Positions 21,701 through 54,700 of a stretch of 64,000 nucleotides of DNA are shown here, piece by piece. The notes below the pieces were generated by a model. The model ran no database searches. It was not told where the DNA came from and worked only from the letters and a program-made list of their open reading frames with translations. Position 1 is the first letter of the stretch; every line of letters begins with the position of its first letter. The position numbers and the translations under genes were made by a program. Source of the DNA: Aphrocallistes beatrix (lineage: Eukaryota > Porifera > Hexactinellida > Sceptrulophora > Aphrocallistidae); NCBI GenBank assembly GCA_963281255.1, contig OY725506.1:1593001-1657000 (forward strand). The letters are read 5' to 3'.

Positions 21701-24700
21701 AATCAATTTAGTATTAACAGAGGCTATCTCCTCTCTAACTCGGCAGTATTGTTCCAATAGAGTCAGTGTAATAAGGCGGAGCAGGTCTAGATCAATATCT
21801 GCCTTTTAAATATACAGTTGGATCAAATTTGTTTAATAGCCGAACTACTTGAGTTTGGTTGGACAGATAAAGATTAAACCTCCGCTATTCCTAGGTTAGT
21901 GGGTATGTGAGCCTGCTTGTTATTATCCATGCATGAACCGAAAGTGGGGTTGGAGAATCGCATCAGGGATTTTGCACTTTCCTCTTACCAGGGAGGAAAA
22001 GTGATGCCTCTCTCCGCCCTCGACCCGGCATTACCAAGTTCAGGGACTGGCTGGGTACAGTTAGTTATTATTGCTAGCTATGTTAGATAGCTAATACTTC
22101 ATAATCCTTATAATTCTGTGGAACTCCCAGCTCTACCCCTCTGATGAAACATTACATTTGGATGAAATATTTTATCATGAACTACTCAGGCTTACTAGTT
22201 TACATAGAGTGTATATCGAATTCTTTTAATATGATAGTGCCCTGCAAAACACATTTTGTTCTCCAGTTTGATGAATGGAATCAAGACATCATTGCCTCAT
22301 TTTCCCTCATGCTATTCATGATAGTACCCGCTACCATCACATAATTATGTAGATATTATGAAATTAATGAGTTTTATTGAAAATGTTACAAAAACATAAA
22401 AATCTCTATACAATGAATCTCAATCCCGCAAATTCTAAAATATATTATATACGAATTTCTTTATTTTTCCAAAATACTCCTGGTCGCCAATTTTACCAAG
22501 TCCAAAATATCAATGTTTTCATCGCATCCTAAGGCTTTCCTCAGAGAATTTATCGCCTGGCGAAGCTCTGCAGATGATAAATCAATGTCACTGCCATCGC
22601 TCTCTTCATTCCCTCTTGTTATGTCTGCTTGCTGTGAAGCCATTCAGTACGAAGGCAGATTTTGAATTCTAGTTGGGTATATTTGTCGTGTGCTCCAGAA
22701 TTGTACTTAAGTATCATTCTGTTTCACTCTCACTCCGACTTGAGATGTCATTTCTAGCCTGAGCCTACAATATAATTTTATGTTCACATCATATAGTACC
22801 AACAGGTGTCCAAATCTGATATTCTTAAAGCAGCGGTTGAGATACTGAGAAATATGTATCTCAAATTCCATTTGTCAATTCAAGTACATCTAATTTTATA
22901 TTCTGACTTAAATTGAAATGGTATCGTGACTTGTTCATTTCTTCGTATATACAGAATTAGTAATAATAATGATGAAGTTTTGATCCTGGACAAGTTCACA
23001 TCCCGGGGCTGGGGCTAGCTTCGACTAGACCCCCTAGTCAAAATATACCACTTAAACTACACGAGATTCACAGCTTGTATTTTACTTTTACTAAATGAAA
23101 TTATTTATTGTAGGCCTATTTCCCGGATGGGACAATAGCTCTCACTTCAATAATGAGGAGTTAGTGCAGTGCCATCTAAAAGCAACCTGAATCCCAGGAT
23201 GGGAGGAGGATGGGTCGATAAATTGCATAGAACTGAATTAAACAAAAACCCTCATACGTAGATCGATTACAAGATTTTTATTTTGCATAATTTTTACCAA
23301 TGACCCTAATTATTGATTGAATCAATTTAAAAAAAGTATTTAGATGCCATTCTTAGCCACAAAATATTTAGTTTGCCATGGGGGAATCCAAATATGCGGT
23401 TTAATTAAGCAAGTTGTCTTGGATAAATTAAGTTGGAATGATAGGTCCTTCTGGGTAACATTATACAGTGCGCTGGCCTCGATTTTCTAAAAAATGGGAG
23501 GTCAAGTAATATTATTTTCCATCGAACTGATTTCTCGCTGATAATACTTTTCAAAAGTTGGATCCAACACTATACTACGTGCAAGTGTGTAATTCCAATG
23601 TTCGGTGTTGTTGTGTAGTGCTGAGGAGATGGATGAGATGGTATCACTGTATTCGGTCCTAAATTTCATAACCAGAAGTTAGATGTAGGGATTTGAAACT
23701 GGATTAGTCTGGATGTTAGCAGCTGTGGGTAGGAATTTCTTCATTCAATGCTATTTCCTGTAGATTGGAGAGGAAATGAGGCCATCCCGCTACTCCTCAT
23801 ATTTCCAATGATGTGAACTGTAGTGCAGAATTGCAATATATGTGAAACTAGATGAGCGACTGAGTTGGTTCAATGGAATGGCTGGTTCGCATAGAGAAGG
23901 GATGAGTTCCTATATGTGTAAACTCAGAATTGGAGAATTTTGAAGAAAGCACTGGTCATCTAGTTCGTGTTTGTTAGAATGCACTCTGGTGATATGATGT
24001 TATCAATTCTTGCAGTTGACTGTGAGTTGAGGAGTTTTAATTAGAACGATATCCCTTAAGCTGATGGCTCAGGGAAGAGAAGTTGCGTGTGTTCGTGAGG
24101 ATGAGTTAAGGTGCTGTATCTTTCTATGAAGACTTTTGTAGAGGGGTAGAGATCTCGCAATGCACTCGCGTTGAGTTAAATATGTGCAATTCTATAAATA
24201 AAGATTTCCTGACATGTGCCAGATCACACAGGATGTTTCAACACGATATTTGTTTCGCACCTCTTTTGATCAAAAGGTCTCTACTGGAGTTGGATTTTCC
24301 TTCTTTGAATACACTGGACCTTTTAGTCTGATAAATAGTATTGGCAATTAAAACATTCCTATTTGTTTCGAAACAGATTTCGGCACATGAGTTTCAAGAG
24401 AGTATTTACACTTATTTGGAATTATATTTATAAATATGCTATCTATTTCCATGTCTGTGTACCTACCACCCAAATTTAGCTTTAAATAAATCAAATTTCA
24501 AGACGAGGCTTATCTCAATGGGGAGCAGTACATAAATAGAACTACGTAGTAGGTGAAGTCCAAATCAATCGGGTAACATATCGATCTCTCAATGAATCTC
24601 AAGTTTGCACCATTCTAATTTCACTTCACTACCTGCTCTTGGTTATTTACAAAATCTATAATCATGAACTGCACTCAGTAGTCAGATCTCTTACTCCAGT

Positions 24701-27700
24701 ACGTAATTCTTGATCTGATTTGATTTATTTTAAAAAGACTAGTCATTACATCTGCGACGAGATGACAGCTCCTGCTCCCGCTAGGCTCCCACCGAGTTCC
24801 CATCTCTCCGGCCTCTCTACCGACTTCTACCAGCTCACCATGTGCTACTCCTACTGGAAGAACGACATGCACGAGGAAGAGGCGGTTTTCGAGATCAGCT
24901 TTCGGACCTATCCTTTCAAAGGGAATTTCGCAGTCTTCACCGGCCTCTCCGACTGCCTCAACTCCATCTCCAGCTTCTCCCTGCAGCAGGAGGACGTGGA
25001 CTTCCTGCGGACCATCCTCCCGAGGTACATCGAGCAGGAGTTCTTCCTTTACCTCCAGTCCCTCAACACGGCCTCTCTCAACCTGTTCTTTGTCCCGGAG
25101 GGCACTCTGATACACCCCCGGGTGCCTATCGGCATCATCAGGGGACCGCTGGGACTCATCCAACTGCTAGAAACCGCAGTGATCAATGCCATCGACTACT
25201 CCAGTCTCGTCACGACCAAGGCTGCCCGCATCCGCCTGCGCTGTCCGGAGAAGCGCCTCATCGAGGGCGGCTTCAGACGCGCGCCTGGCCTTGCCGGGGC
25301 GGCGATAGCGTCGAGAGCGGCCTACCTGGGCGGGTTCGACTCCACCTCCAACACGATGGCCGGGAGGATGTTCGACATCCCGACGCGCGGCACCATGGCG
25401 CACGCGTACGTGAGTGCCTACACCGCCGTGAGTCCCGGCTCCCTGGACCAGCGCGTCCTGCCGGCCAGGAAGGGCGGACAGGTGGACATGGTCGGCAGGA
25501 GCTTGCAGTTCCTGGACAAGATCAAGGAAGCGTGCGGTCTGCTTCCCAACTGCGTCACGCACCAGGGGGAGCTCAGCTCCTTCATCGCCTTCGCCATCTC
25601 CTTCCCCTCCTCCTTCCTCCCGGTCATCGACACCTACAACGTGAAGAGCTCCGGCCTGCCCAACTTCCTGGCGGTGGCGCTGGCGCTGGCGGAGGCCGGC
25701 TACAACGCGGTGGGGGTGCGCGTGGACTCCGGCGACCTGGTCTCTCTCTCGCGGCACGCCCGGGACGTGTTCTGCAAGGTGGGGGTGCTGATGCAGGTGC
25801 CCTGGATGCGGGCGATGCTGGTGGTGGCGAGCGGGGACTTGGACGAGGACGTGATCTCCAAGCTGGAGGAGCGCAGGGCGGAGGTCAGCGCCTACCTGGT
25901 CGGGAGCAGACTCGTCAAGACGCAGGGGGACTCGACCCTCGGGGTCGTGTTCAAGCTGGTGCAGAGAGGCCCCCAGCCCTGCTTTAAACGGTCCGAAACG
26001 TCGGAAAAGTCTCTCATCCCCGGGGAAAAGTCGGTGTACCGGCTCACCTTCTCCACCGGGCTAGGAACCGCGGACTACCTCTGTCTCCCGGAGGAGTCCT
26101 GTCCCTCTATCCGCACGCCGCTCCCCTGCGTGCGTCTCCCCAAATGCGAGGAGATCCAGGTGGTTCCGTTCGAGGTGACCAACCTCCTCAGTCGCTACAT
26201 GCCGCAGGCCTACGGGCTCCCGTCTGCGAGGGACACGCGGGAGCGAATCACGATGAACCTGTCTCTAGCCGAGCACAACCTCCACCAGACCCTCCTCAGC
26301 CCCTCCCTCTACGCCGTCACCAGGAAGATGAGCGACGAGGTGAATGCGCTGGAGCTGAGGTACAGTCGTGACGTCATCAAGAGTGTGGAGTCCCTCTCCC
26401 CCACCTGCTCCCCTCTTCCCACAGAGTTGTCTCATGAAACTTAATTTCCCACCAACTCACTCCTTCGAGATTGTTTTTCAAACAGGTTGATTCGGCTGAT
26501 TAGGCACTTCATTCACACACAGAATTCTGCATTCGCTTTAGTTGATTTTATTTCATACATTTATTACTGAGTCATGTTCCATCCACTTATCTGATTAATG
26601 ATCTCAATCTTATCTATTCCCATGACTGTTCGAGTTAGCAGCTTAATGAGGGTTGAGGAATTAATACATCGCAGTGGCTGTACGGTATTCATGACGTGTA
26701 TAATATCCTGACTTGTGTTGTGTAGGCAGTCAGCAGGTACAGGTGCTGCCAGGAAGAGAGTGCACAGCTGGCTGAGACGGTCTCCTGTCTGGAAGAGTGT
26801 GTGGATGAGCTGAGATGTGAAAAGTGCCACCTGGATACGGCGCTGGCAGAGTTGAGACAGTCGGTGGAAGAGGACAGAGAGAACGTCCTAGCCCGACTCT
26901 CCAGTCTCCGCTCTCTCAGCTGTACGGGGGGGTCGGGGTGCGAGGGGGAGGGAGAGGGGATGGAGGAGTTGGAGGGGTGTCTGCTGGATTTGGAGCGGGA
27001 GAGGGAGGCGTGGCGTGGGGAGCAGCAGCGGCTGAGTGAGCAGCTAGAAGCTGCAGGAGCAGAGCTAGCCGCGTGTCGGGAGCAGCTGGGAGAGAGAGCC
27101 GTAGTGACATCTGACTACTCCTGTCAGACAGATCCTACAGGTAGCCCCCTCACTAGCTCAGTGCACGTGCAGACTACACAGGCAGTGCACAGGAAGCAGT
27201 ACCCTCCTCTCAGACACGCCCTCACACAGACCCCGCCCCTGTCCCCTCACACCCCCGCCAAGCCCAGCAAGCAGAGCTCCGAGCTGCGCAGTCTGCAGAA
27301 GCGGGTCAGTTCGCTGGAGAGGCAGGCGGAGCTGCTCGCGGACGCGAGGAGCGAGGCCAGGCGTGCGCTGGCAGAGGAGCAGCACAGGTGTGCGCACCTG
27401 CAGCGGCAGGCGGAGGAGGTGGCGTACAGCCTCAAGGTGAGCAGTGCGGAGAACAGCTCGCTCAGCGCCGAGGCTCTCGTCCTGAGACAGGCCAACGCGA
27501 CCCTGGAGGAGACCCTGCAGGCCGGACTCCTGGAGAGGGACTCTGAGAGTAGCGCGGTCTTCTCCCGCCTGGAGGCCCGTCTTAGAGCCTCTAGCGACGA
27601 GTGCACCAGACAGGCGGCCACGCTGCACCGACTGAGCAAGGAAATATCCGAGAAGAGGGCGGAGATAGAAACTCTGACAGAGTCTGGCGCCCGGAGGGAG

Positions 27701-28372
27701 CGGGAGTACAGGCAGAACCTGACCAACAAGCGACACCTCGTAGACGAGATGAAGGAGCAGCTGCAGGCGCTCAAGTGCGCCAAACAGTCCAACGAGGATC
27801 TGCTACGTAAGCAGGGGGCCGAGGTGCGGCGTGTGTCTGAGAGCAGCGCCCACCTGAGTAGCAGGAACGCGCACCTGAAGCAGCAGCTGTCCCGAGTGAG
27901 CGAGGAGAGGGCCTGCTCGCAGCAGGAGCTGGACCGGGCGCGGCAGGCGCTGTCCGCACACTCGCAGCAGCTCAGCCTCTCGCAGGCCGACTGCGGTCGC
28001 AAGGAGCAGCTGCTGAGAGCAGCCAAGCTCCAGGTAGACCAGCTCTCTCAGCTGTTCGGAGAGGAAGAGAAGGGACGGAGCGAGGACCTGGAGAGGAGAG
28101 TGACCTGTCTCCAGGTGAGCATGCAGGAGTACAGGCAGACGATCCTCTGCGTGAGTGAGCTCATCTGGAGGAAGCGGTCAGGGGGTGTGACTAGAGACAT
28201 ATTGTCTCTTTCAACGAAAGAAATAATGGAAGTAGCCAAGCAAGGTCCGGGCCCCGTTCAGCCATCCTGGGGCGACACGAGCCATTACACACACGTTGTG
28301 GCCGCTCTAGAGAAACAACCGCCGTTTGCACGTCCTCTAGCTGAATTCATTCTGAGCATACTTGACTTGTAA
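18766..28372 (+). CDS. large coiled-coil protein, two coding exons
   Basis: Exon 1 is 18766-20103 and exon 2 is 26726-28372, giving about 994 residues. The donor is CAAAGAG|GTGAGT and the acceptor TTGTGTAG|GCAGTC, both phase 0. The frame is open across the junction and continues the heptad-rich style. Most of the protein (about residues 10-330 and 450-920) is E/Q/K/L/R-rich coiled coil. TQT-type sequences in a less helical middle part (STQTYP near 350, SCQTDP, then LTQTPP) resemble dynein light chain LC8 docking sites. The last about 70 residues are non-coiled and end in a hydrophobic AEFILSILDL. An AATAAA at 28427-28432 follows the stop. A centrosomal, ciliary or cytoskeletal scaffold is plausible by analogy, but I do not recognise the orthologue. 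The 6.6-kb intron holds NAPRT and a small antisense gene. The alternative is two separate genes, which the matching splice phase argues against. Confidence 0.75.
20104..22372. other. intronic DNA of the coiled-coil gene
   Basis: Frame from exon 1 runs on to 20253 only by chance. Contains an unclassified repeat at 21247-21475. Otherwise AT-rich with no supported gene. Confidence 0.5.
21247..21475. repeat. dispersed repeat with TTTTAGTRCAG end
   Basis: Begins TTTTAGTACAGTTCC and contains GGCATGGACGGCGT and CCATCCGTCCATC. It matches the ends of the elements at 40424-40600 and 61545-62075. Its right edge is CAGTTCTTCAATCAATTCGG, the terminal block shared with the structured repeats at 16 kb and 57 kb. 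This suggests either a chimera or that the two families share a 3' end. Confidence 0.5.
22461..22643 (-). CDS. small acidic protein, paralogue A, nested in intron
   Basis: A 60-residue frame starting at the ATG whose complement is at 22641-22643. It has a polar, acidic N-terminal half (SDGSDIDLSS) and a helical C-terminal half containing LRKALGCDENIDILDLVKLA. It resembles the product of 52472-52723 in length, charge and the block LRK-x-L-x-CDEN followed by D and LAT-x-x-I; I count 14 identities in the 27 aligned residues. A polyadenylation signal (AATAAA on the minus strand, 22373-22378) lies about 85 bases downstream. The upstream region is homologous to that of the paralogue. It lies antisense inside the large intron of the coiled-coil gene. 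No known family is recognised. Paralogy plus a shared promoter make it a real gene despite its size. Confidence 0.72.
   Translation of the reverse strand: MASQQADITRGNEESDGSDIDLSSAELRQAINSLRKALGCDENIDILDLVKLATRSILEK
22760..22900 (-). promoter_or_regulatory. conserved upstream module of paralogue A
   Basis: Read on the minus strand: TTGAATTGACAAATGGAA, then GACACCTGTTGGTACT, then ATGATGTGAACAT and finally TGTAGGCTCAGG. The same blocks in the same order precede the paralogue at 52472. CACCTG is an E-box core. The module ends about 120 bases upstream of the ATG. Promoter function is inferred from conservation and position. Confidence 0.7.
22985..23065 (-). other. tRNA-like fragment, possible SINE head or pseudo-tRNA
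   Basis: On the minus strand, GTGTAGTTTAAGTGGTATA resembles a tRNA A box, followed by an anticodon-arm-like stem GACTA/TAGTC with a 7-base loop, and GGGATGTGAACTTGTCC resembles a degenerate B box. U33 is missing and the T-arm is irregular, so it is not a functional tRNA by eye. Confidence 0.3.
23066..24761. other. intronic DNA upstream of NAPRT
   Basis: AT-rich and without supported genes. It must hold the NAPRT promoter if that gene is independently transcribed, but no clear core element is visible. Confidence 0.4.
24762..26444 (+). CDS. NAPRT: nicotinate phosphoribosyltransferase
   Basis: An intronless gene of 560 residues from the ATG at 24762 (human enzyme 538). It catalyses formation of nicotinate mononucleotide from nicotinic acid and PRPP with ATP hydrolysis, the first step of the Preiss-Handler NAD pathway in the cytosol. 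Family signatures in order: STDFYQLTMCYSYW near the start, ISFRTYPFKGNFAVFTGLSD, then GGFRRAPGLAGAAIASRAA and GGFDSTSNTMAG. The catalytic-region GTMAHAYV is followed by VIDTYNVKSSGLPNF and VGVRVDSGDL, then YLVGSRLV. The in-frame codons upstream of the ATG are AT-rich and not family-like. GC content is high relative to the surroundings. The whole gene lies on the same strand inside the 20104-26725 intron of the coiled-coil gene. All key motifs look intact. Confidence 0.95.
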   Translation: MTAPAPARLPPSSHLSGLSTDFYQLTMCYSYWKNDMHEEEAVFEISFRTYPFKGNFAVFTGLSDCLNSISSFSLQQEDVDFLRTILPRYIEQEFFLYLQSLNTASLNLFFVPEGTLIHPRVPIGIIRGPLGLIQLLETAVINAIDYSSLVTTKAARIRLRCPEKRLIEGGFRRAPGLAGAAIASRAAYLGGFDSTSNTMAGRMFDIPTRGTMAHAYVSAYTAVSPGSLDQRVLPARKGGQVDMVGRSLQFLDKIKEACGLLPNCVTHQGELSSFIAFAISFPSSFLPVIDTYNVKSSGLPNFLAVALALAEAGYNAVGVRVDSGDLVSLSRHARDVFCKVGVLMQVPWMRAMLVVASGDLDEDVISKLEERRAEVSAYLVGSRLVKTQGDSTLGVVFKLVQRGPQPCFKRSETSEKSLIPGEKSVYRLTFSTGLGTADYLCLPEESCPSIRTPLPCVRLPKCEEIQVVPFEVTNLLSRYMPQAYGLPSARDTRERITMNLSLAEHNLHQTLLSPSLYAVTRKMSDEVNALELRYSRDVIKSVESLSPTCSPLPTELSHET

Positions 28373-28432
28373 CCTGAATCACTTGCGAATTATGAACCAT
28401 TTTCACACATATTATCTACATGTATAAATAAA

Positions 28433-28965
28433 TATATCTCTGACCTTTTTTTTTCACTTCATTAATGCAGTTTTGCAGATAACTCTGCGATTCAAATCTG
28501 CACTGAAAAAAATATTGAATCGGTTAAAAAAGTCAGAAGTTAGCTATTATAGGAAAGGCCAACCTTAAGATCGAATCTTCAATGATCATGAACTATGCAC
28601 TTTCCTACCTCGAACAGTTAGGTGATCAATTTTCTGAGAATCAAACCAAACAAATTGATTGATTAATTAAAACCCGAGGATTACTTGGGGTCAAAGGTAT
28701 AAATAGAAATGACCCAGCTTTCACTTTCATTTTCAGTTTACTTTCAATTAACTTTCACTTTCAATTCAACATTCCTGGACGTGCTCGGATTAATGATTAT
28801 ACTATTGCAGAACAGGGCAATGCTAGAATCATGCTAATTATTTTCAAGATATAATCAGTAAACTACATGCTTTTGATAACAATTTTCTATTAAAACACAA
28901 CAAACGATTAAATAAAACAACTTTATTTACGTTATTAAAGTCTTCCTCCAAGTTCTTCTCTCATT
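28433..28965. other. intergenic stretch before tRNA
   Basis: No supported gene or delimited repeat. CTTTCACTTTCA-like short repeats occur near 28720-28765. Confidence 0.5.
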
Positions 28966-29037
28966 GGCTCGTTGGTCTAGTGGTATGATTCCTGTTTTGG
29001 GTACAGGAGGCCCCGGGTTCAAATCCCGGACGAGCCC
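28966..29037 (+). tRNA. tRNA-Pro (anticodon TGG)
   Basis: A 72-base cloverleaf with no intron. Acceptor arm GGCTCGT pairs with ACGAGCC and discriminator C. D arm is GTC-TAGTGGTAT-GAT. Anticodon stem CCTGT/ACAGG encloses loop TTTGGGT (anticodon 28998-29000). T arm is CCGGG-TTCAAAT-CCCGG. Internal A box and B box match Pol III consensus. CCA is not encoded, as expected for a eukaryote. Confidence 0.97.
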
Positions 29038-29330
29038 TCACTTTTTATCTAAAATAATTTAGCTACTGAATGGCGATCTGCAGCTTTAGATTCTAGACGC
29101 AATAATGTATGTAGTGTTACGTAGCAGCCATAGACATAAATGGTATCCTTTATTTTGGACCATGGATGAGAAGTTAGGCAATTTCACGACTTTTGAACTA
29201 AGAGAAATTTGTTTCTCTCCACAATGGTTTCCTATTGATATATTTTTGCCGCAAAACCGAACATTTATCTGAACCTGCTTGCTTTACTTCATGTATATTG
29301 TTGTAGGTTCTGTAGTACTTTTTCCAATTA
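29038..29330. other. short intergenic stretch between tRNA and transposon
   Basis: Nothing recognised beyond the Pol III terminator. Confidence 0.4.
29042..29046 (+). terminator. Pol III terminator of tRNA-Pro
   Basis: Run of five T residues starting five bases after the tRNA. Confidence 0.85.
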
Positions 29331-29968
29331 CACTACAGTATCGATTTTACGAACACCGATTTTACGAATTATTTCCAAGTATTGATCGATTTTACGAATT
29401 CTTCTCCCCAAATTCATTTTATCAATAATTATAATATTTGCATCTTGTAAAACAATTTTGGTTGTCTTTTATATCAATAATGCATACGTACTTGTATTAT
29501 GTATACAAATTACGTACGTTGTATTTTACTTCTCAATGGCAAACGGTTTTACGAACTTCTACGATCGATTTTACGAAAAAATACTTAGAACTGAGTTTCT
29601 ACAATTGTTATATGAAGTTTTCTATTATGCTAAAATTTCACTATGGATTGGGCTAATGTTTTTTTCTTGTCATAATGATGCTGCTTCAATTCCATAACAA
29701 GGGTTCTGTTTACGAATTCATAGTACCAATTTTACAAATTCATAGTTCTGATTTTAGGATTTATTAAATTTGTATGCATATAAGAAACATAACATAGGCG
29801 TTAGAAGCTCTCAAAGAGTGGAGGTCCAGTCCATTTTATCCTGATGATTGGAAATGCTTAGTTTAGCCTACATTTAATGAATTAATTATAATTATTGCTT
29901 GATCCATTGGTGTTGACAAGATTCAAATTGTATATTTAGATTTATTACTACTACATACTCCTGTATTT

Positions 29969-31546
29969 ATGGCTTCTCAGATGGTGAAAACCAAAAGGAA
30001 GAGGACTTCCTATAGCTTAAAAATGAAGTTAGATGTCTATAAAAGGATAAAAGATGGAATAGCACCCTCTATTGTTGCAACTGAGTTTGCGATCCCAAGA
30101 TCTTCAGTAAGTGTAATTAAGAGCTCAGGGCCAAAAATGGAAGCATTTCTCTTGGCTAATCCTCGGCTTGATTTTCGACGAACAATGAAAAGTGCTTCTT
30201 TCCCAGAGCTTGATAAAGCTCTGAAATTGTTTTTCGATGGACAACGAGCTTTGGGGAAACCGATATCAGGCGCACTTCTACAGGAGAAGGCAAAAATATT
30301 TTTGGAGAAGTTATCTCCACCGATTCAAGTAAAGACATCAAATAATTTGCTCTCATTAGAGGATATACAAAATAATTCAACGTTAGGAGGAGGTTTTATC
30401 CACAAATTCAAACTGCGTCATGGGATCAGAAATATTAGCTGCGTAGGGGAGAAGGAAAGCGCTAATAAGGATTCAGTCAACCCTTTTCTACAGTCCTTTA
30501 ATTATTTAACAAAGGACTTAACACGCGATCAAATTTATAACGTAGACGAGACCGGTCTATGTTGGAGGGCAATACCAACTAAGACACTAGCAGGTCCAAA
30601 TGAATTGAGAGCCGATGGTAGTAAGATTGACAAAGAGAGGGTAACACTGATGGCGTGCGCCAATGCATCAGGTAATCACAAACTAGAGTTAGTTTTTATC
30701 TATAAGTACCAAAACCCCAGGGCTTTGAAACACATTAATAAAGACAAACTCCCAGTCGTATATTATAGTCAGCCCAAAGCATGGATGACTACGGAATTAT
30801 TTGACAATTGGTTCCACAATCATTTCATTCCGGCTGTCAGTAATTATCTCAAAGAGCTTGGCCTAGAAGGAGCAGTACTTACAATGGATAATGCCCCAAG
30901 CCATACTAAATTTTCAAATCTAAGGAGTTCTGCTGATACTAAAATTAATTGTCTCTTTTTTCCACCTAATACTACGTCAATTTTACAGCCAATGGATCAA
31001 GGCGTGTTAGATACCTTAAAACGGCACTATAGAAAGAAGATAATGAGGAATGCCCTTTTAAATGAAGACAATGTATTGAAAAATATGTCTGCTGTGAAAA
31101 AGAGTATCACAATAAAAGACGCTATTGTCTGGGCGGCTGAAGCATGGGCAGAAGTAAAAACCTCTACGATTCAGTCCAGCTGGAACCTTATCTTACCACA
31201 TCTTGATTCTCCCCAGGAGGGTGATAAAGAAATAACTACGAGTGATGATGTTGAAGACGAAAATGCATCCTCTGATTGTTTTATTGATGAAGATGCTGGC
31301 GGGGAAATGATTGAGCTGAATGATGAGGAAATTATCGAGCTTGTTCAAAATGAGGAACATCAAGAGCCTATTGATGATGGCTTGACCGAAGTGCCTCATA
31401 TTGTCCCAATAATAGAAGCTACTACCATGTTAAGGTCTATATTACCTACCTTGGAAAGCGAACTAGAAAGTAGTAAAGAAGAAATCCTAGTATTTCAAAG
31501 GGTACTGACAAGATGGATGAATTCCCCAGTTCCGAAACCCTGTTAA
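29969..31546 (+). CDS. Tigger/pogo-type DDE transposase
   Basis: An uninterrupted 525-residue frame. The N-terminus (about residues 8-55: KRKRTSYSLKMKLDVYKRIK) is the pipsqueak/CENP-B-type helix-turn-helix that binds the element ends. A second CENP-B-like DNA-binding region (about 65-165) follows. The DDE_1 catalytic core shows the three acidic positions in NVDETGLCW (about 192), LTMDNAPSHT (about 310) and ILQPMDQGVLD (about 344). The C-terminal about 100 residues are acidic, as in many Tigger proteins. Function is cut-and-paste transposition at TA targets. All expected catalytic residues are present, so the copy may be recently active. It could instead be a preserved host gene, but the flanking terminal repeats make a transposon the simpler reading. 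Confidence 0.95.
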   Translation: MASQMVKTKRKRTSYSLKMKLDVYKRIKDGIAPSIVATEFAIPRSSVSVIKSSGPKMEAFLLANPRLDFRRTMKSASFPELDKALKLFFDGQRALGKPISGALLQEKAKIFLEKLSPPIQVKTSNNLLSLEDIQNNSTLGGGFIHKFKLRHGIRNISCVGEKESANKDSVNPFLQSFNYLTKDLTRDQIYNVDETGLCWRAIPTKTLAGPNELRADGSKIDKERVTLMACANASGNHKLELVFIYKYQNPRALKHINKDKLPVVYYSQPKAWMTTELFDNWFHNHFIPAVSNYLKELGLEGAVLTMDNAPSHTKFSNLRSSADTKINCLFFPPNTTSILQPMDQGVLDTLKRHYRKKIMRNALLNEDNVLKNMSAVKKSITIKDAIVWAAEAWAEVKTSTIQSSWNLILPHLDSPQEGDKEITTSDDVEDENASSDCFIDEDAGGEMIELNDEEIIELVQNEEHQEPIDDGLTEVPHIVPIIEATTMLRSILPTLESELESSKEEILVFQRVLTRWMNSPVPKPC

Positions 31547-31650
31547 ATCGAATGATTACCAATTTACTATAATTATTGGAGCTTTAGGTATGTTCCCACT
31601 AGACATGCTCCATTATTCACTTCGAACATTCTAAACTTTATATTATACAA

Positions 31651-31791
31651 ACTCAAACTATCGATTTTACGAACTCAAACTATCGATTTTACGAACTGAA
31701 ATTATCGATTTTACGAACTCAAACTATCGATTTTACGAACTGAAATTATCGATTTTATGACTCAAACTATCGATTTTACGAACTCAAACTA
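31651..31791. repeat. 22-bp tandem array in Tigger element
   Basis: Six copies of a unit containing TATCGATTTTACGAACT, with TCGATTTT starting at 31661, 31683, 31705, 31727, 31749 and 31770 (the fifth unit has lost a base). The unit core equals the inner part of the terminal repeats, so these are probable transposase-binding sites. Confidence 0.9.
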
Positions 31792-33466: not shown

Positions 33467-35821
33467 CTAAAACAAACACTTGACACAGCTGAATGGTGCA
33501 GCAGACACGGTCTCATGGTCCACATCTGCACAAGAGCAATGGAACCAATCTGAGCATGAGTCGCAACGCACCCATTCAGCAGCATCCTTCTCATCCTCAC
33601 TCGATGTGTCCCCTGTTGGCTCCCGTCTGAGGCAGAGAGAGCACATGATGTCTGACTCTTCGCTACTACTAGAGCAGCCGGGAGATGACGAATCTTCCTC
33701 GTCAGAAGAAGAAGAGTCTTCTCCATCTTCCACTTTTCTCTTTGTTCCAGTGTTCCCTCTTTTTCCTAGCGAAGGTACTACTGTAGTCCCGAAAGGTTCT
33801 TTTTTCTTCAATTTCTTGGTTTGCTTCGCCTGCTTCTCTTCAAGTCCAAATCTGCCCCCGCAGTAGCTGCTTCCACCTTCTGATTTCAACAAAGCGCTCT
33901 CCCTTTGTTGTCTTAATAACTTCCGTTTCCTTCTGAGCGCCTGGGGATTGCCTGTCGTTTTAATTTTAAGACCTAACTTCAATTTTTGTATTCGCTTGAT
34001 GGTTGAGTGGAATACGTTGAAAGATGGAGCGAGCCCTAAATCCTGCATAAGGCCGTATATCGGCAGTTCTCCTTCATTGAACTTGACAATAGCCATCGCT
34101 GTACTGATTCTAATCGACTGGGGCGAGATGTACTTAGTCTTCGGGCATAGGTTCCATATACAGTTGTGAAGTGACTCATTTGCGTTCTGAGTCAGACCTA
34201 GCGTGATGTGACTGCAGAAATCGGGCGTGGCGTAAGTACTGAATACTTCCTCTACCTTCTTGATATCCAGTGGTGTGAATGTGGTGAGTGCAGCGGGAGG
34301 TGTTGAGGTGCTAGGGGGTCTACTCCATCGACACCAGGATGTCTCCCCACTAGGACAATGGGAGTGGTTCCCGGAGGCGTGGTCCAGCAGTCGCAGTAGG
34401 CCAGATGACAGGGCGCTAGGAGAAGAGCCCTTGAGCTGCAAGACAACTGTGGAGTAGTTAGAGGCGATGTAGTCAGCCTTCCACTCGGGGAGTCTGTGCT
34501 GGACGTAGCTAGCTGTCTTGGTGCTGGTCTTGACGCTCTTCAGGTTCCTCTTCAGACGCTTGGCTACGTGCGTGAGACACTCCTCTTTTCGAACCTTGAC
34601 CAGCGGGTACGGGTTCAGTTCGGTCACGGTGTGGAAGCTCTTAGAGTCGCCATCCGCGACCATTACTGAATAGACCAGATCGTGTTTCTCTAGAGAACGA
34701 CCCCAGATGCGTTTAGCTGCTTCTGGCTCCATGCCCTGTGAAGAACCCGTGTAGTTACGATTGCAAATAGGCTTATGATCCTCAAACCACTTCTCGTATT
34801 CGGAGGGATTTTTCTCCTGTTTCTCCTGCGACCAGGTGGCACACTTCTCACAATTCCGACTCAATAGCTCGTAATCTAACACTTTCTTGGTAGAGGTCGA
34901 GATAGCCGAACCGAAACCAACGTTAGAGTAGTGTCCTCTCGTCTTCCAAGAGCTGTCAAAGCTGATGGAGACGTTAGTGGCGTTGGTTTCGGGGGATGAT
35001 TCGCTGTCTACTCTATAATGCAACTCAGTGGCAGCCTCATCCATCGAAACAGCCACAGCATTTCGTGCTACATACTCAAGACGGTCTACATAGCGAGATG
35101 GCATATTCTCTAGTGGTGGTGGCATATCGAAGATAGTTGCTATCTTATGCATATCGCTCCAGGACATCCCCGTTGAGTGAACGACCATTACAGATCTCAT
35201 GCCGACCTCATTCATAGCCCTTGGACTCACTGGCACATTCACGCAAGTATGATGGTTAGGAATGTCTAGCGGTCGTGAAGAAGGAAACGACGCATGTTCT
35301 TTATGGCAACCGCTGCATTTGACATGAAAAAATGTCTGCCAGCCATGCTGCCAATCCTCTTCGTAGAGGACGAGAGGGCGTTTGCAATCAGTGCACCGAA
35401 ATGTAGAGAATACTTCGGACATGATAGCAATGTCAAGCATCCTATTTCCATGAGGCTTATGCATTTTCTTTTCATATACCTTTTCTTCTAAGCAGTATTC
35501 TACAGGTCTAAGTTGAGCTTTTTTCGGTGCGCTGTATCTAGAAGCATATCCGCTTTGTGGAAATGAAAACGAACATTTAGCACGTGTCGATCTAGATGGA
35601 ACGTCTCCAGCTTCTTTGCAAAGTTTTTGAGAAATCACATACTGATTACCGCGGAATTTTTTTTTTGGTGGGCGACCACCACGTTTTTTTTCATTCGGAG
35701 TATTTATACACTTTGAATTGTCGAGTGTAGAGGAGAGTATCGAGATCCCGGAAGAGAATGACATAGGCTGTAGCTGTGGAGACAGAGAGTCTGATCTGAT
35801 TTCGTGAGCACCTTCCATCAT
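33467..35821 (-). CDS. Mutator-like transposase with C-terminal PHD finger
   Basis: An uninterrupted 784-residue frame. It has an AT-hook-like GGRPPKKK near residue 50. A zinc-binding region (FRCTDCKRPL, VKCSGCHKEH, about 140-180) follows. Then comes the Mutator-like transposase core: SISFDSSWKTRGHYSNVGFG (about 287), VMVADGDSKSFHTV (about 390) and NANESLHNCIW (about 568). These supply candidate D, D and E catalytic residues and match the Mutator-like transposase family of invertebrate genomes. A Lys-rich and Ser/Asp/Glu-rich linker leads to a PHD-type finger, CSLC followed by VRCDSCSDWFHCSC and FSCVKC (about 730-783), a possible histone-tail reader. I could not delimit terminal inverted repeats or a target duplication. 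It may be an autonomous element with short or no inverted repeats, or a domesticated transposase. Confidence 0.85.
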   Translation of the reverse strand: MMEGAHEIRSDSLSPQLQPMSFSSGISILSSTLDNSKCINTPNEKKRGGRPPKKKFRGNQYVISQKLCKEAGDVPSRSTRAKCSFSFPQSGYASRYSAPKKAQLRPVEYCLEEKVYEKKMHKPHGNRMLDIAIMSEVFSTFRCTDCKRPLVLYEEDWQHGWQTFFHVKCSGCHKEHASFPSSRPLDIPNHHTCVNVPVSPRAMNEVGMRSVMVVHSTGMSWSDMHKIATIFDMPPPLENMPSRYVDRLEYVARNAVAVSMDEAATELHYRVDSESSPETNATNVSISFDSSWKTRGHYSNVGFGSAISTSTKKVLDYELLSRNCEKCATWSQEKQEKNPSEYEKWFEDHKPICNRNYTGSSQGMEPEAAKRIWGRSLEKHDLVYSVMVADGDSKSFHTVTELNPYPLVKVRKEECLTHVAKRLKRNLKSVKTSTKTASYVQHRLPEWKADYIASNYSTVVLQLKGSSPSALSSGLLRLLDHASGNHSHCPSGETSWCRWSRPPSTSTPPAALTTFTPLDIKKVEEVFSTYATPDFCSHITLGLTQNANESLHNCIWNLCPKTKYISPQSIRISTAMAIVKFNEGELPIYGLMQDLGLAPSFNVFHSTIKRIQKLKLGLKIKTTGNPQALRRKRKLLRQQRESALLKSEGGSSYCGGRFGLEEKQAKQTKKLKKKEPFGTTVVPSLGKRGNTGTKRKVEDGEDSSSSDEEDSSSPGCSSSSEESDIMCSLCLRREPTGDTSSEDEKDAAEWVRCDSCSDWFHCSCADVDHETVSAAPFSCVKCLF

Positions 35822-36983
35822 ATCAAGGGATCAGGGACCGGTAGATCAATTATACGTTGTGATTCTGAAAACAGTAACGAATATTCCGCTATTAATTAAA
35901 ATTGGGGGGAATATAAATTTACCCAAATTGGTTTTGACAAACTTTAACATATCATCAAGCTCTTCTAGAATGTGCACCAAGGAGATAGAGGGTAGAGTCT
36001 GTCGGAAAAACATTTCATACAGTTGTAAGAGACTTAATGATTTTTAAAAATATTAGAAGCTGCAGCCTGTAGGAGTCGTAGGGAATCTTAAAGTAATCGA
36101 CATACAGCACAGCTCTATAAGATGAGCACCACTATTCATATAACTTGAGTATACAGGCATAGACGTTTATAATGAGGATTAGCAAAACTAAATCATTAAA
36201 AGCAAGAAAAGAATGCATTTAAGTGGATCTAGTTATTTAGTGAATATAATCTTACAATAGGATTATCATCACGGTCCAATAATGTAGTTCTCTATAGTAG
36301 CTGATGGAATGGAATTTTATTCTTTACCACACGACACCATACAATGTGTTCAGATGATATGCCTGCAGGTTTTTATTTATAAGGCTTACCACTTCTCCAC
36401 CTTTTGCAGCACATCATACACATTATTTAGTACTGAGCTGAAGAAGGCCTCGTATATAAAATTTGCAACTTCTAAATTTGAAAATTTAAATATTATCCTT
36501 GTTCGTACTAACGGTTCCTTAAAATTATATAGTCAATCTGTACTTCCAGATTCCGCGGCCAGGGCCTCATTTGCCTCAATGAGGATCCGCATCTGCTTCG
36601 AATAAGAAGCTCCCGGGTGCTTATTGTTTTCGTGACCGAAATTTTCCCTGAAGAATTTGTGAAAAATTAAGAAGCCTAAATCAATGTAAATGTATATCAT
36701 TATCTCACTGTTGGGATTTAAAATTATCTCCTTACCCCGGCCCTTATTCGAAGTCGGACAATTGTAACAAAGAAATTGATTAGTGAAAATTAAATTGTGA
36801 AAGGTACACACGTACTTATAACTTGATAATGCTAGACTCTGGCTAGTCAATTAAATGTGCTAAATGTTACAATGAAGACTACGTAAATCGAAGTTATATA
36901 AATGCAAACCCAAGCACTTTTGCGGTAACATTATACTTGCATTGTTAAATTAATAACTTTGTTTTGGATTTTTCAAGGACCCG
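35822..36983. other. gene-free stretch
   Basis: No supported gene. The short frames at 36309-36605 and 36533-36850 have no recognisable content. Confidence 0.5.
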
Positions 36984-47099: not shown

Positions 47100-47494
47100 A
47101 CCATTCTCTTAATTGTGTTGGTCACATTAGCCGAGTGGATTTTGAAACGAAGGATTAACTAATACTTTCGTTGGTATGTTTTTACTCTGTGTTTTCTTTC
47201 GCTGACCATGGATAATAATTAGAGGGAATGCAGTAAACCCACCTGTCAAACTGTCTAACGTTTTCTAACTTCACTTGGAATCACTTGTCTCGCCACGCTT
47301 TACCTGGTCCTGCCAGGGCTAGTTATGGTTGCCATAGACGCTTCTAAATTATTTGATTTCACAGGGGGCGACTAATGCAGACACGAGAGTGCTTGTAATG
47401 TGATAAATTTATAACTATTTCACATTTCTTGCTTATTAACTTTTTATATTATCTGCTATTATATTAGATTCCCGTAATCTTGTATATACCCGTA
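47100..47494. other. 5' flank of RPL9
   Basis: No supported gene or repeat. A TTATATTAG just upstream of 47470 could be a splice acceptor for a 5' UTR exon. Confidence 0.35.
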
Positions 47495-48064
47495 ATGAAG
47501 ACCATTCATGTGAAACAGTTAGTCCAGATTCCGCCAGGAATAAAGGTAACTCTCAAAGGTCGAACTATTACAGTCGCTGGGAAGAGAGGTACATTGAAGC
47601 GTAATTTCAGTCACCTCTCTTTGGAAATGAAGAAAGAGGGCAAGAGGAGGATAATGGTCGAAGTCTGGTTTGCGGACAGGAAGCAACAAGCTCTGGTGAA
47701 CACGGTATGCAGCCACATACTGAATCTATGCAAAGGAGTGCAGTACGGGTACAGGTACAAGATGAGGGCTGTGTACGCCCACTTTCCTATTAACATCATT
47801 ATCTCAGACGATTTGTCTCAAGTCGAAATACGGAATTTCATTGGTGAGAAGGCAGTCCGGCATGTACAGATGTTAGAAGGGGTCACCTGCATTAATTCAT
47901 CCGTGAAGGATGAAATCTACGTGGAAGGGAACGACCTGGATGATGTGTCTCGTTGCGCTGCAAGGATCCACCAATCTGTCTTGGTGCGTGGTAAGGATAT
48001 CAGAAAGTTCTTGGATGGAATTTATGTTTCCGAAAAGACGACAATTCTTTCAACCGAGACTTAG
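47495..48064 (+). CDS. RPL9: 60S ribosomal protein L9 (uL6), intronless
   Basis: A 189-residue protein from the ATG at 47495 (human 192). The start MKTI matches the family start, so the open codons before it are not used. The uL6 fold is visible: VTLKGRTITVAGKRGTLKRN (N-terminal domain), KGVQYGYRYKMRAVYAHFPI (linker and second domain), IRNFIGEKAVRHV, VEGNDLDDVS and the C-terminal signature KDIRKFLDGIYVSEK. It belongs to the large ribosomal subunit near the stalk base and sarcin-ricin loop. Divergence is noticeable around residues 45-65 (EVWFADRKQQALV). There are no introns in the coding region, unusual for a metazoan ribosomal-protein gene, so it may be a retrocopy, though the frame is fully intact. 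Confidence 0.93.
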   Translation: MKTIHVKQLVQIPPGIKVTLKGRTITVAGKRGTLKRNFSHLSLEMKKEGKRRIMVEVWFADRKQQALVNTVCSHILNLCKGVQYGYRYKMRAVYAHFPINIIISDDLSQVEIRNFIGEKAVRHVQMLEGVTCINSSVKDEIYVEGNDLDDVSRCAARIHQSVLVRGKDIRKFLDGIYVSEKTTILSTET

Positions 48065-48709
48065 CTAGACTACTGACATTATTCTAGTTGATTAGGCTCT
48101 TAGTAGTTCGTAGTGTTCAAGTGAGTATAATTAGTGAATATACCAATTCAATGCTATTGGTAGAAATTATACATATTTACAATTAAGTGTATGCTAAAAA
48201 ATTTATTTCGTTTACATACGAGTAAATGTAGGATTAGAGGTTGCATAGAGCTTCCCCCTTTCTTATGATTATTATGTCATGGTAGGGAACTAATAGACTC
48301 ACCATCAAGGCGTAGCCAGTCACTCAATCAGGGGCTGCAACCTAGCAACCTGAAACGGCAAATCTACAGGTCCTGGCGACCTCCCAGAAGTTTAATAGGT
48401 CTGCCGGCAGCCCTTTGCTGCGCTCTTGAGTGGTAGCAAAGAAATTGTATGTTGGAGTGTTGGGATGGAAGGGATTTCATTGAACTCCTAGAAGTAGAAC
48501 TTCTTCAGGGCTTTTGAAAATAGATGAGAGTGAACCATTTCAATAAATAGTATCTAGAACAAACTGATGGCCATCACTAGGAGTCTAACAGGAAATGTGT
48601 ATGTGACAGCTGCACCTTCACAAATATATTTATTATAGAGATGGGGAGGTATTCCATTAACTCTTATGTGAAAGTATAGGAATTTTAAAATAGATTCAAA
48701 TTATGACCG
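48065..48709. other. intergenic region between RPL9 and the RCC1 gene
   Basis: AT-rich with a GC-richer patch at about 48320-48430 that resembles transposon-derived sequence but could not be delimited. An upstream out-of-frame ATG at 48703 overlaps the start of the RCC1 gene. Confidence 0.4.
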
Positions 48710-51700
48710 ATGTCATTTCCGGAGTTGTTTGAATTGGTTGAGCTGTTGGACATCACTCGTCCACCTGACCCCTTGCTCTCTCCCTTCCTGGAGAGAAAGG
48801 AATCCGGAGAGCAGCCTGGAGCGGACACGGGGGAGTCTCTGCTGGAAGGGGTGCAGCAGGACATCAAGAGGGTCTGTCTCAAGGACTACGGGGAGATGAG
48901 TGTGCTGGTGCTGTACTGTAGGAACGGACACCTGTTCTACAGACTCACCCAGAGAGACCGCCCTACCAAGCTTAGAATTGTAAGGTATCATTATCCTATC
49001 TATTTATATACGCACTGTGTATACTCGAAGGGTAGCCCTACCTCGAATATCAGGTCCCCTTATTGCCTAGAAAATGTGGCTAATAACACTAGCTACTATT
49101 CGAGGAGATTTACAGTCCCATTCCATTTCAAAAGTATTCTTTTTTAACAATTTTTCAATTTCCACCTGCACGCCGTGATTTAACCTTGAATTTAATTAAT
49201 TTACCTTCAATGGCAATTTAAGTACATAGTATATTATTAATATTTGTCTTTAATTTTAAAAAATATCGACTTTTAACGATTACAACAAAATGCACACATA
49301 AAATAACTGGCTCTGCAAAGGCGCTATAGACTCAATCTGGTCCGCAGGCTCAAAATGGTGCCGACCCCTGTCATACAGGAACAAAGCATGTATGCGAGAA
49401 TTGATTCGTTAGACTAGAACGGATCTTTGAACATTGAACGCACAATCGTAAATGCCCTCTGCATTACTTCTTACAGACAATCAGAACATAGACATTCAAA
49501 GTTCTCACATTCCTTCTTAGTTTCGTGTTTCCTAGCTGTCTTCCCTTATTTTAGGTGGTTTCAGAACTGCTGGATCTGTGACATGTGTCTGAGTCCGGAC
49601 AGTCAGCGGCTGCTGGTTGCTTGCAGTCACGGCATCCTCAAGATGCTGCCGGTGCTGCCTCTACTCACGGACAGCTACCTCACTAATGGAGAGTGGGAGG
49701 CACGAGATGTTGAAAGTCTCCTCAATATCAGGCAATTGCCATACACGAATTGTTTAATGTAGGATTGACTCTTCACACTCTTTGTTCGGATCCTTTAATT
49801 TATTCTGACTAATTTACTAACTAACTCAGAAATTACCCTTTACATGTATCCCAAATCCAGAAGGGCTCATGTATGGATTACTTAAACAAATAGAAGGCCA
49901 GTTTTAATTTTGTTTCTAGAGGAAATTTTCCTTTTATAGTAACGAATCTCGCTTTGTTTAAGACATTCCATTGGAATCATTTTTGAAGCAAGTTTCGACC
50001 GTCCCTTGTTATTTGTATTAATGAGGTGTAAATAATATATAATTGTCTGCACTTTGTATCAAGAAGCATGTCTTTAGTGGACATAAAATTTTTCTTCCAT
50101 TTTATTACTAATTTGGATTTTTTTATAATCCCGAGGGATTCTTTTACTTATTAACGGAATAACATCCAAGATTAACTTGTGTCTCTTTCTAGACCATATG
50201 GCTGTCCTACCAGCATCGCCTGGTGGAGTGCACACAACGCTAAGAATATAGGCATTGTTGGCTTCCAGAAAGGTAGCATCGTGTTCGTGGACCTAGACGA
50301 GAGGGAAGTGAAACGGGTGTTGGAGCTAGGAGCAGAGCATGTGCCCCGAGACCTGCAGCTACAGCAACACAATAACCACTCTGCTACCACTCTGATTGTT
50401 GTCACCAACAGCAATGTGAACTTCTTCTGCCAGCTGGAATCAGCTGATGACACACTGCTCAATACGATCAATGGGGGTGAGTAATTCAATGTAATATGCA
50501 ATATTTAAAAATTCACGTATTTAAATCAGCCAGTTTTCAATATGCAATCGGAACCGTTTTTTCTTACTGGATTTTCAGAATTTCAAATTTAGACTCAAAT
50601 TATGTTGACGTTGATCTCCTCAATTTAATTATTCCTTGTCAGAATACTATATTTGATACAGGGCTAAATCCTTGTAAAGATGGAATGTTATAGAAAACTA
50701 CAAATTTTAACATATTTTTGTCCAATTTTTTTTTGCAATTTTTAAAATTATTTGCTCTTTCACCTATCTAATCATAACACTATTAGCAATAGACAGGCTA
50801 AAAATGGGCAATATTAAAATGAATCGTGACCTTCGTTATATAATGACAACTCACGGTTTAAAAAATTTGGACCAGGGATAAGACCGAAATCTATCGAGTA
50901 AATAAAATATCTTCAACTTTGTAAGATAGAACTTATGAATATATTACCTGCATATGCAATTGTAATTTTGATTACATCATCGTTTAATTATTACGTCATC
51001 ATGATAGATCAAATAATATATTTCTCTACTCAGTTCAATACATATCTCTACTCAGTTCAATTATCTCATTCAAACTTAGTATGTATGTGTGTAGGAGGTA
51101 GTAAAGGCTGTGGAGAGGATCACTCAGAGTATTTGAGTCGTCAAGAATTTGGGTCCAGCATTCTAAGCAGGCCTTCTTCTGATGTTGAATTCTCTCCTCG
51201 GCGTATCCAGGTACCGAAAGAGACACAGAAGTTGTGTCCGTATCGACAGAATCACAGATCTTACATTGCTCTCTTTGACTCACTCGACAGCAAGCTCCTG
51301 CTGTGTCAGGATATCGACCTCCTCTCTCAGGTCTGTCAATGTTGTACTCTCCTTTTCTTATTAGTTCTATGTCCAGTTATTTCTTTAGCAGTGTTCTACA
51401 ATTATTTGAATCAAATTAAGTTTCAGAGTATAAAATACAGTCGACTCAGCTTAATAGGGTCACTGTTTAATCGGAGCACTTTTGGTAGGACCGGAATAGC
51501 TCTCACACATTCATGGATCTACCGGTTTCCGAATAAGGGTTCACTTACCGCACTCATCCTCTTGCCGTCTATGTAGATCTGCAGCTGATGTATAGTTCCT
51601 CGAAGTATATTTGTATCTGGGAAGTCTTAATATGTGAAGAAGATTGCTACAGTAGCTGGCCATTCAATACAGGAGTAAACTGTCATACTTTAATAGAATT

Positions 51701-54700
51701 AAGTTATGGCAACTTTCTGAGCATATAATAATACATGTAGGCCCACATACCACATTTATGCAGATTCAGGGGTCGGCAACTCTAGGCAGGGCTGCCACTG
51801 GCACACTTCATTCAAAAGTTTGCCGGCCCCTGCCGTAGAGATAGTGAAAAGATTCCATATTAAACACCTGATAAATATTTAAGGAAGTTTGAATGGGTAT
51901 CCCATCGTTCGCGGGCTAGGAAAATCTGTCTGCGGGCCAAATTTGGTCCGCGGGCCTTATGTTGGGCAGGCCTGAACTATAATAACAATACGGTTTATAA
52001 TGAAGTGTCCAAATTGATGGAAATTGTAATGTCACACATAACAGTTTATTGCATTGTAGTTTGCATTTTATTAATGAGATCACATACCTCATCTGATTTA
52101 ATCAGTTATTAAGAACTGCTTTAATTGACCATTGGAACGTTGATTAAATTTCTCTCTTGCTCTTAATCTTACTTAGTTTGATAAGGAGCAGGTTTAGACA
52201 CCTGTTGGTACTAAATGGTGTGAACATTAAATAATTGCTTTAATTGACCATTGGAATGTTGACTCAATCTCTCTCGTTCTCTTAAATTTTACTTAGCCTT
52301 ATAGAAGAAGCAGGTTTAGACACCTGTTGTGATACTACATGATGTGAACATTAAATCTATAGGCTCAGGTAAGTTGCTCGGTAGTTGAAGATATGATCCA
52401 ATAAATAAAACATGTTATAAATTGCAGTCAGATTTTGAATCTAAGTCAAGCTAACCACTCATTCATATCCAATGGCTAATCCAGACAACGTAAAGTTCGG
52501 AAAAACGGAAATTGATGCCAGTTCAGGGTGTTCAGATCCATATCCTCCTATTCAGAGCTCCGATTTAGCAAAACTAAGGAAAATATTACAATGCGATGAA
52601 AATACTAAATTAGAAGATATGTTAGTGCTGGCAACAGAGAAAATTAAAGAGCATCTTGAAGTAGAGAAAGGGAAAGAATTGGCAGGGATAATAGAAACTT
52701 TAGAAACTTTAAATCTTGATTAATTCAAATAATAAATACTATTTAAATTTGTAGATGTGTTGTTCTCGAGATTTTTATGCTTCTTATTACTATCTTAATA
52801 TTAAATATCTTTTCTTGAATATAATATTTTCCTTCTACTGCTTTGATTGATGAGTGATATAATTTTATACATGAATCCCCGTATATTTAATTAATAACCT
52901 GAATTCGTTTCTTCACCTAAAAACCTCGACAACCACCCTTTCTGCAAGTAAATGCCTCGTTCGGCAACCTGAGAGCCATATCTCCTGTCCCGGTAAACGG
53001 ATGTTTCGTCCCGGATATTTCATCGTCGGATTTTTCGTCGCTGATATCTCTTCGAATGGAATACAAACTGTTGGGAAACATGAATTTGTTCTAAAGCTGA
53101 ATATAATTAATAGGAGAGTGAGAGTGAGCATTTTGGAGAGTATTATGTATAAGAGCAAAGAGAAAGTGGTAGTTTTCGGGTTGAAATAATATCAAATGGC
53201 ACGCGAGAGTGGTATTTTTATTTCTTGAGGGGGTGGGTGATTGTCATTATTATTTTTTAGAATGAATGTGGGAGAATGAAAGCGAGGATTCAATAATTTC
53301 ATTCAAAGAAATATCAGCGACGAAACTTGTTTTTAGTTATTTTTTCCTTTGTAAAATACAGAGAAATAGAAAATTGTAGATCATTTGTACAGTAGAACAG
53401 AACGTCGTTAATACGAACGAGATTTTATCCCCGACTATATACGTGTATGATATTCACGCTAAGGTTCTTGTGTATCTGTCGATGTGATGAAATTAAGTTT
53501 GAAATCTCTATTTAATTTAGATTAACTAGTCTGCCTATCCTGTAACTCTCAAGTCAATACTCGGAGTAACACGTAATTGGAAATGTCTAAATTATTGAAA
53601 GTGGAACCTTTGTTTGTATTTCCATGTTCTCTACCATCTCCTCTATCAAGCACAAGATATGATCACATGTCTATTTGTCAAGAAGACAACCAAATATACT
53701 TCGGGTTTCCTGTACACAATATCATCTCAGTGTTTGATCTAGATGGAAATTTCTTATTCTCTATCAAAATACGCATCTCTCTTTTTATTCTAGGCAAACT
53801 GTGCTCTCTTTCAGCGAACAAGTTATGTGTTTCCAACCGATACAGACCTCTACTCTTCAGCATTTATATAATAACTTGCGAGGGTGTAGTCATAACAAAA
53901 TATAACATGGCAAATGTGAATCCCCGGAGTTTCGTAGATTGCAAGTATTCGGTCAAAACTAATATTCTCTGTTTTGCTAAACTTCACGTTATCTATTCTC
54001 TTGGTGATGAAGGAATGATTGAGCTAAAGAAGACTGATTTTAGAATATCAAATCGTCCTTCAGCGAGTATCACATTTATCCATACAAATTTACTGCTTGT
54101 TTATTATAAATTTGGGAAGATCTCTGTATTTGACGTAGAGCATGATGTGCTTTTGAGGGAATTGAATTTGGACATACGGCCCAGATATAATATGAGATGC
54201 TTCGATTATTCTGACAATTTATTCTTTTACTATTCCATGCCATCTGAAATTGTCCTTAAGGTCGTCTACTCACCAAATCAAAACAGTGCATCTTTACTGG
54301 ATGGTAGGAGCATACGTCTATCTGTTCCAGCTGCTAAATTCAAATTAATGGCTGTCCACTCTAAGAGTAGGCGGTTGTACATAGAGGAAAGGGATAATCG
54401 TGTGAGAGTGTACGATTTAGACGAAATCATCAGATTATCCAGCACTAAACCCGATGAAAAGGAAACTGACTCTGAACAAGATGCTGATAGCATTCCGCTT
54501 TTACCTCTCATCATGTATTATATTTGAGTGGATATCATATCATATTATTTGTTTACAGTTGAAATACATATATTCACTATATTTTTCAAGTGGAGTTACT
54601 TTTACCTATTCACCTACTCTACTACTATTCCTCTTCCATTTAAAGATGGTATTTATTTGTGTGAATTTGAACATTTACTTTGATTATTCTAATACTTGGA

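Follow-up and report, generated by a model that had tools for sequence, protein, structure and literature searches.

A probable pair of duplicated small genes with a shared upstream module in the glass sponge Aphrocallistes beatrix, and a possible HLH-like core in their products

We analysed a window of 64,000 nucleotides (nt) of the Aphrocallistes beatrix genome (GCA_963281255.1, contig OY725506.1, positions 1,593,001 to 1,657,000), in which two short open reading frames (ORFs), in opposite orientation and separated by about 30 kb, encode related acidic proteins. It is very probable, in our view, that these are two paralogous intronless genes for small mRNAs, duplicated together with their promoter and 3′ untranslated region (3′UTR), in which the protein core has been under selection and a compact cis-regulatory module upstream has been kept almost unchanged, the flanks have diverged and the module of copy 2 has later been doubled in tandem. 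That both look like real, intronless and duplicated mRNA genes is based on the identity of their cores, the bias towards silent change, the shared module and the shared 3′UTR block. The elements are the following.

22461..22643, minus strand: ORF of copy 1 (P0001, P1), 60 residues, isoelectric point (pI) about 4.4, single unbroken frame
52472..52723, plus strand: ORF of copy 2 (P0002, P2), 83 residues, pI about 4.6, single unbroken frame
22758..22880, minus strand: module of copy 1, ending about 115 nt 5′ of the ATG, with AATTGACAAATGGAA at 22880-22866, GACACCTGTTG at 22810-22800, ATGATGTGAACAT at 22792-22780 and AGGCTCAGG at 22766-22758
52117..52235, plus strand: module of copy 2, first tandem unit, lacking AGGCTCAGG
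52236..52369, plus strand: module of copy 2, second tandem unit, with AGGCTCAGG at 52361-52369, ending about 103 nt 5′ of the ATG
22395..22406, minus strand: shared 3′UTR block GAGATTTTTATG of copy 1, 54 nt 3′ of the stop codon, AATAAA 16 nt later
52768..52779, plus strand: shared 3′UTR block GAGATTTTTATG of copy 2, 44 nt 3′ of the stop codon, ATTAAA 20 nt later

Results

The protein core is conserved beyond chance

Both frames start with ATGGCT and translate as the acidic proteins of 60 and 83 residues proposed in a first-pass annotation of this DNA; copy 2 carries a C-terminal extension that is absent from copy 1. The core (LRK...ILE in copy 1, LRK...IKE in copy 2) contains the motif LRK-x-L-x-CDEN...LAT-x-x-I and the 14 identities reported there, although the aligned length is 26 residues and not 27. 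When P0001 was compared by tblastn with the window and 200 kb of flanking sequence, the top match other than itself was copy 2 (E 5.5e-4). The core nucleotides differ at 32 of 78 positions (first, second and third codon positions contribute 11, 8 and 13) and silent change is favoured, with proportions of synonymous and nonsynonymous differences of 0.70 (pS) and 0.34 (pN), a rough estimate since it comes from a single short comparison. With the same number of differences placed at random, 8.4 of the 26 residues are kept on average, and 14 or more with P 0.0017.

The upstream module and the 3′ ends are shared

There are three modules, one 5′ of copy 1 and a tandem pair 5′ of copy 2 (period 119 nt, 52117-52356). 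By blastn of the two 3-kb regions, the modules of copy 1 and copy 2 match at 41/47 (E 2e-11) and 50/63 (E 2e-9) positions, which bears out the homology of upstream noncoding DNA noticed earlier; outside the module only weak matches were found (E 0.09 or more). The claim that each copy has the same module is borne out, with a tandem doubling at copy 2 whose first unit lacks AGGCTCAGG. Copy 1 has block 1 as AATTGACAAATGGAA, copy 2 as AATTGACCATTGGAA; GACACCTGTTG has exactly three matches in the window (22810-22800 on the minus strand, 52197-52207 and 52319-52329). Across the modules the spacing is 70, 74 and 77 nt from block 1 to GACACC, and 31, 31 and 33 nt from GACACC to the end of GTGAACAT. 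All three contain a CACCTG E-box. The modules also contain GATGTGAAC or GGTGTGAAC, which we take to resemble a T-box half site, as a candidate only.

The homology extends to the 3′ ends, further than had been described, through the 12-nt block GAGATTTTTATG in both 3′UTRs; a match of at least 12 nt at an offset within 20 nt occurred in 1 of 1977 random pairs of 120-nt stretches taken from the window. Copy 2 has a second, earlier AATAAA 7 nt past the stop codon, and its poly(A) site is therefore ambiguous. The TTTTTAT of the 3′ region presumably resembles a cytoplasmic polyadenylation element, again as a candidate only.

Conservation is higher in the module (41/47 nt) than in the ORF core (46/78 nt), as would be expected if the conserved unit were a regulatory element or a non-coding transcript and the ORFs incidental. 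We regard this as improbable, given the silent-site bias, the amino acid identity above chance, and the ATGGCT start and 3′-end anatomy common to both frames; moreover, two of the three modules have no excess of RNA structure (z -0.24 and -0.10), the first tandem unit giving z -2.03. A structured RNA was also considered and rejected: Rfam at gathering scores finds only tRNA-Pro in the window, and the folds are ordinary for two of the three modules. The view of the first-pass annotation that the two frames are functional duplicates rather than chance frames is thus borne out by the module and tblastn matches, the silent-site bias and the 3′UTR block.

Searches for further copies

The genome searched comprises 100.5 Mb in 28 contigs. 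The composite pattern GACACCTGTTG-N(3-12)-ATGRTGTGAACAT has three genome matches, all at this locus, and none in the control; a shorter composite form returns the three known modules and one control match. When the spacing is fixed and as many as 3 mismatches are allowed, there are two matches, both at the locus, and none in the control, the third module being missed because its spacer is 2 nt longer. Block 1 alone is not unique (eight genome matches, five of them outside the locus; control 0), and in the 915 nt around each of these five places neither the remainder of the module nor the protein was found. Two of the five, near-identical stretches on C2 (L029) and C9 (L030), each carry AATTGACCATTGGAA and are probably one dispersed repeat. 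A regulon of other genes bearing the module was rejected, the composite searches yielding no further place.

Used as protein queries on the genome, P0001 (E<=10) and P0002 (E<=1) each matched only itself, and a 143-nt DNA search matched the two modules of copy 2 and not that of copy 1. Since these similarity searches failed to join the copies, they could also overlook a third copy that has diverged to the same degree; the copies are linked genome-wide by the pattern searches only, which yielded nothing further. Within 100 kb on either side, tblastn with P0001 gave no convincing third protein copy; beyond the window the highest-ranking match, L011 3526-3600 at E 0.034, belongs to a frame of 42 residues lacking the motif. 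Viral contigs searched with P0002 held no relative. Hence the "family" proposed earlier stands as a related pair, two copies only, under protein searches blind to a third copy as diverged.

The tandem doubling at copy 2, and the tandem repeats frequent in the window (24 rows), would fit the view that the copies belong to a mobile or repeated element. We think this very improbable, as the pattern searches yield just three modules genome-wide and the 3-kb regions match only weakly outside the module. A transposon or dispersed repeat was rejected on the count of three modules in the pattern searches.

No Pfam or NCBIfam family matches the proteins

Pfam and NCBIfam hold no family for P0001 or P0002 (in NCBIfam a single sub-threshold match for P0002, E 0.15), and the PDB matches are at chance level. 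The label "undescribed family" is supported to that extent, but it applies to a pair, and the comparison was confined to these databases, with no literature search aimed at the motif. We put about even chances on a duplicated pair with a shared promoter whose product is a lineage-restricted orphan of another fold and role, such as that of a small acidic adaptor, and not an HLH protein. Besides the empty family searches and the chance-level PDB matches, the poor ranking of the small bHLH genes in the reverse profile search favours such an orphan; the scores of both cores in a three-gene helix-loop-helix (HLH) model, above nearly all controls, speak against it (both below).

The PDB profile list is headed by PCNA, with single chains at E 0.45-1 and a triple fusion at 7.9e-7 that sums three weak matches; the fusion is also the top match for P0002 (E 0.0054) and P0001 (E 1.5). 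The pair might on this account be a PCNA-related fragment, namely a helix and a strand of the N-terminal domain. We consider this extremely improbable: the single-copy E-values are at chance level, the aligned stretch is about 30 residues, and the score of the alignment to the PCNA of this genome is reached by 4 of 400 column shuffles. A genome search with PCNA_N (PF00705) matches the PCNA gene on C1 and a weak place on C18 (E 1.5), and none in the window. The relation to PCNA was therefore rejected on its chance-level E-values, the empty Pfam scan and the PF00705 result.

The bHLH genes of this genome

An HLH profile search of the genome (PF00010, cut-off 20.7 bits) gives 49 places at E<=1, 20 of them above the cut-off, and 19 of the 49 were read (11, then 8 more). 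By eye we take these basic helix-loop-helix (bHLH) places to include AP4, SREBP, MITF, two E12/E47 (L036 and L039), one atonal-like, ARNT/BMAL- and Clock-like genes and a few small ones. The small genes are L040 on C16, L041 on C10 and L049 on C1, with Pfam HLH scores of 23-32 bits; L040 and L041 are each in one open frame and are mutually related (E 3.4e-6). With 19 of 49 places compared and names given by eye, the set resembles that of the glass sponge Oopsacas minuta, where the accessible part of the report lists AP4, MITF, SREBP, E12/E47, atonal-related, Clock, ARNT and BMAL, and no members of groups D, E and F (PMC10280926). A search of this genome for Wnt gave no match, but neither did the control genomes, so this negative is weak; Wnt is likewise reported as unmatched in Oopsacas minuta, in the part of the source available.

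Three hidden Markov models (HMMs) were built from these genes: an 11-gene model (L033-L043), used for shuffles and real-protein windows; a 12-gene model (L040, L041 and L049 with L033-L039, L042 and L047); and a three-gene model (L040, L041 and L049). L043 is only in the first 11-gene model and L047 only in the 12-gene model; L046, L048 and L050-L053 were left out of all models, being partial or of unclear HLH. Alignment A5 has 11 genes (L033-L042 and L049), and the windows test used the L033-L043 set under the same label. Background ORFs are stop-to-stop frames of 40-400 residues (HMM scoring) or at least 35 residues (reverse ranking), taken from fetched sequence only.

A possible HLH core

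The HLH idea arose from the LRK-x-L ... LATxxI pattern and then from the small bHLH genes L040, L041 and L049. We suggest, tentatively and from sequence comparison, that the core (LRKxLxCDEN...LATxxI) may be a short-loop HLH without a basic region, of the kind found in Id-like antagonists of bHLH factors. The three-gene model gives P1 a score of 9.8 bits, which 1 of 3000 shuffles attains, and places it first among 2377 ORFs; P2 scores 5.1 bits (5/3000 shuffles) and is third, with the ORF of P1 among the two above it. In the same model, neither core is reached by any of 2846 overlapping 38-residue windows drawn from 16 other ORFs in this DNA. By hhalign, the core pair aligns with 11 bHLH sequences in the helix 1-loop-helix 2 register (P 2.7e-4, probability 41.5), the observed score being reached by 2 of 400 column shuffles, and by 0 of 400 against three bHLH sequences. 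Neither P1 nor P2 has a basic stretch N-terminal to the core.

Several results weigh against an HLH core. The Pfam HLH profile gives no match at E<=10 for P1 or P2, whole or core, although the three small bHLH relatives do match it, and the unbiased PDB profile search returned, in its 43 matches, mainly PCNA and PI3K p85 and no bHLH. The three-gene model was picked post hoc, with the resemblance already seen, and when it is applied to the cores by themselves, P2 is reached by 18 of 3000 shuffles. The broader models are weaker: shuffles reach P1 and P2 in 3 and 132 of 3000 cases with 12 genes, and in 18 and 72 of 2000 with 11 genes, and 34 and 18 of the 2846 real-protein windows, respectively, reach the P2 core (P1 core 0). 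Hhalign of the full-length pair gives a probability of 10.7, and that of the core pair, run locally, 6.5. In the reverse search with a two-core profile, L049 and L040 come 42nd and 331st among 3498 ORFs, and the frame of L041 that encodes the bHLH falls outside the first 400. For the supposed helices, hydrophobic moments do not clearly exceed those of shuffles, and the E-box makes up only 6 of the conserved module bases. In sum, the HLH evidence amounts to a modest lead and not to membership, yet it provides the leading specific mechanism that the sequences suggest.

Genomic surroundings

Copy 1 is flanked by a coiled-coil ORF (18745-20253, plus strand) on one side and by the NAPRT gene (24714-26444, plus strand; one long open frame with Pfam N and C domains) on the other, and a second coiled-coil ORF (26726-28372) follows 3′ of NAPRT. 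In the first coiled-coil ORF an AG|GTGAGT donor lies at 20103, and TAG| precedes the opening of the second at 26726; both are in phase 0 (phases set by hand), and so a single coiled-coil gene may span both ORFs, with an intron holding NAPRT and copy 1. The two ORFs recall the two ends of centlein, which we offer as an assumption. About 0.86 kb downstream of copy 2 is an ORF that has an ATG of its own at 53583. The first-pass annotation placed both copies inside large introns of unrelated hosts; this is plausible for copy 1, though with NAPRT in the same interval, and unsupported for copy 2. For the related Aphrocallistes vastus, the part of the genome report at hand gives about 80 Mb and nearly 2500 nested genes (PMC10282587).

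Elsewhere in the window, a long open frame at 29903-31546 (plus strand), near 22-nt tandem repeats (31642-31791), resembles by eye a Tigger/pogo-type DDE transposase, and a 787-codon frame at 33467-35830 (minus strand) has a C-terminal PHD-like region and possibly a Mutator-like transposase part (also by eye). Ribosomal protein L6 domains (PF00347) lie in a single open frame at 47468-48064 (plus strand), possibly a retrocopy. Directly downstream of copy 2, at 53033-53325, inverted repeat arms of 30 nt, 90% complementary and 233 nt apart, form a small structure like a miniature inverted-repeat transposable element. Outside the window, a 158-residue single-frame bHLH gene (L045, C10:4865626-4867826, minus strand) seems by eye to sit between the exons of an aminopeptidase-like gene and may be another small regulatory gene within an intron; the stretch L023 (C20:1707001-1717000) has an open frame of more than 2800 codons with repeated units, by eye, from base 1475 to its end.

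Discussion

As a lineage-restricted duplicate, tandem or dispersed, the pair is ordinary in being linked, in sharing a promoter and a 3′UTR block and in encoding a short protein; it differs in that the promoter module is better conserved than the coding core.

If the core is an HLH, the closest known system would be Id/Emc (group D), which the pair resembles in its small size, a possible HLH core with no preceding basic stretch and a possible link to bHLH control. It differs in its length of 60-83 residues, its short loop and the lack of a detectable Pfam HLH score. The genes L040, L041 and L049 would share with the pair the helix 1/loop/helix 2 register and the short loop, but Pfam recognises an HLH in them and not in P1 and P2. 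For both the calcisponge Sycon and the demosponge Amphimedon, the number of group D genes is given as 0 in the available part of one survey (PMC5064789), and it is not found in Oopsacas in the accessible part of another (PMC10280926).

If they are HLH-only, we suggest that the products would act as dimerisation-only partners, which titrate bHLH activators such as the E12/E47-like factors off DNA, as Id/Emc do elsewhere. Because CACCTG occurs in all three modules, bHLH factors could drive both genes. By a weaker step, the genes would then be under bHLH control damped by their own products, that is, under negative feedback. We consider it a speculative and rather unlikely extension that a sponge lineage without group D evolved its own Id-like antagonists, HLH-only and duplicated, with a bHLH-responsive promoter better conserved than the protein and with negative feedback on E-proteins.

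Both outcomes would matter. If the proteins are orphans, the pair would be an unusually clean case of a duplicated cis-regulatory module that outlives the coding sequence, with parts that can be dissected. If they are HLH-only proteins, dominant-negative control of bHLH factors would have arisen again, in animals reported to be without Id/Emc genes.

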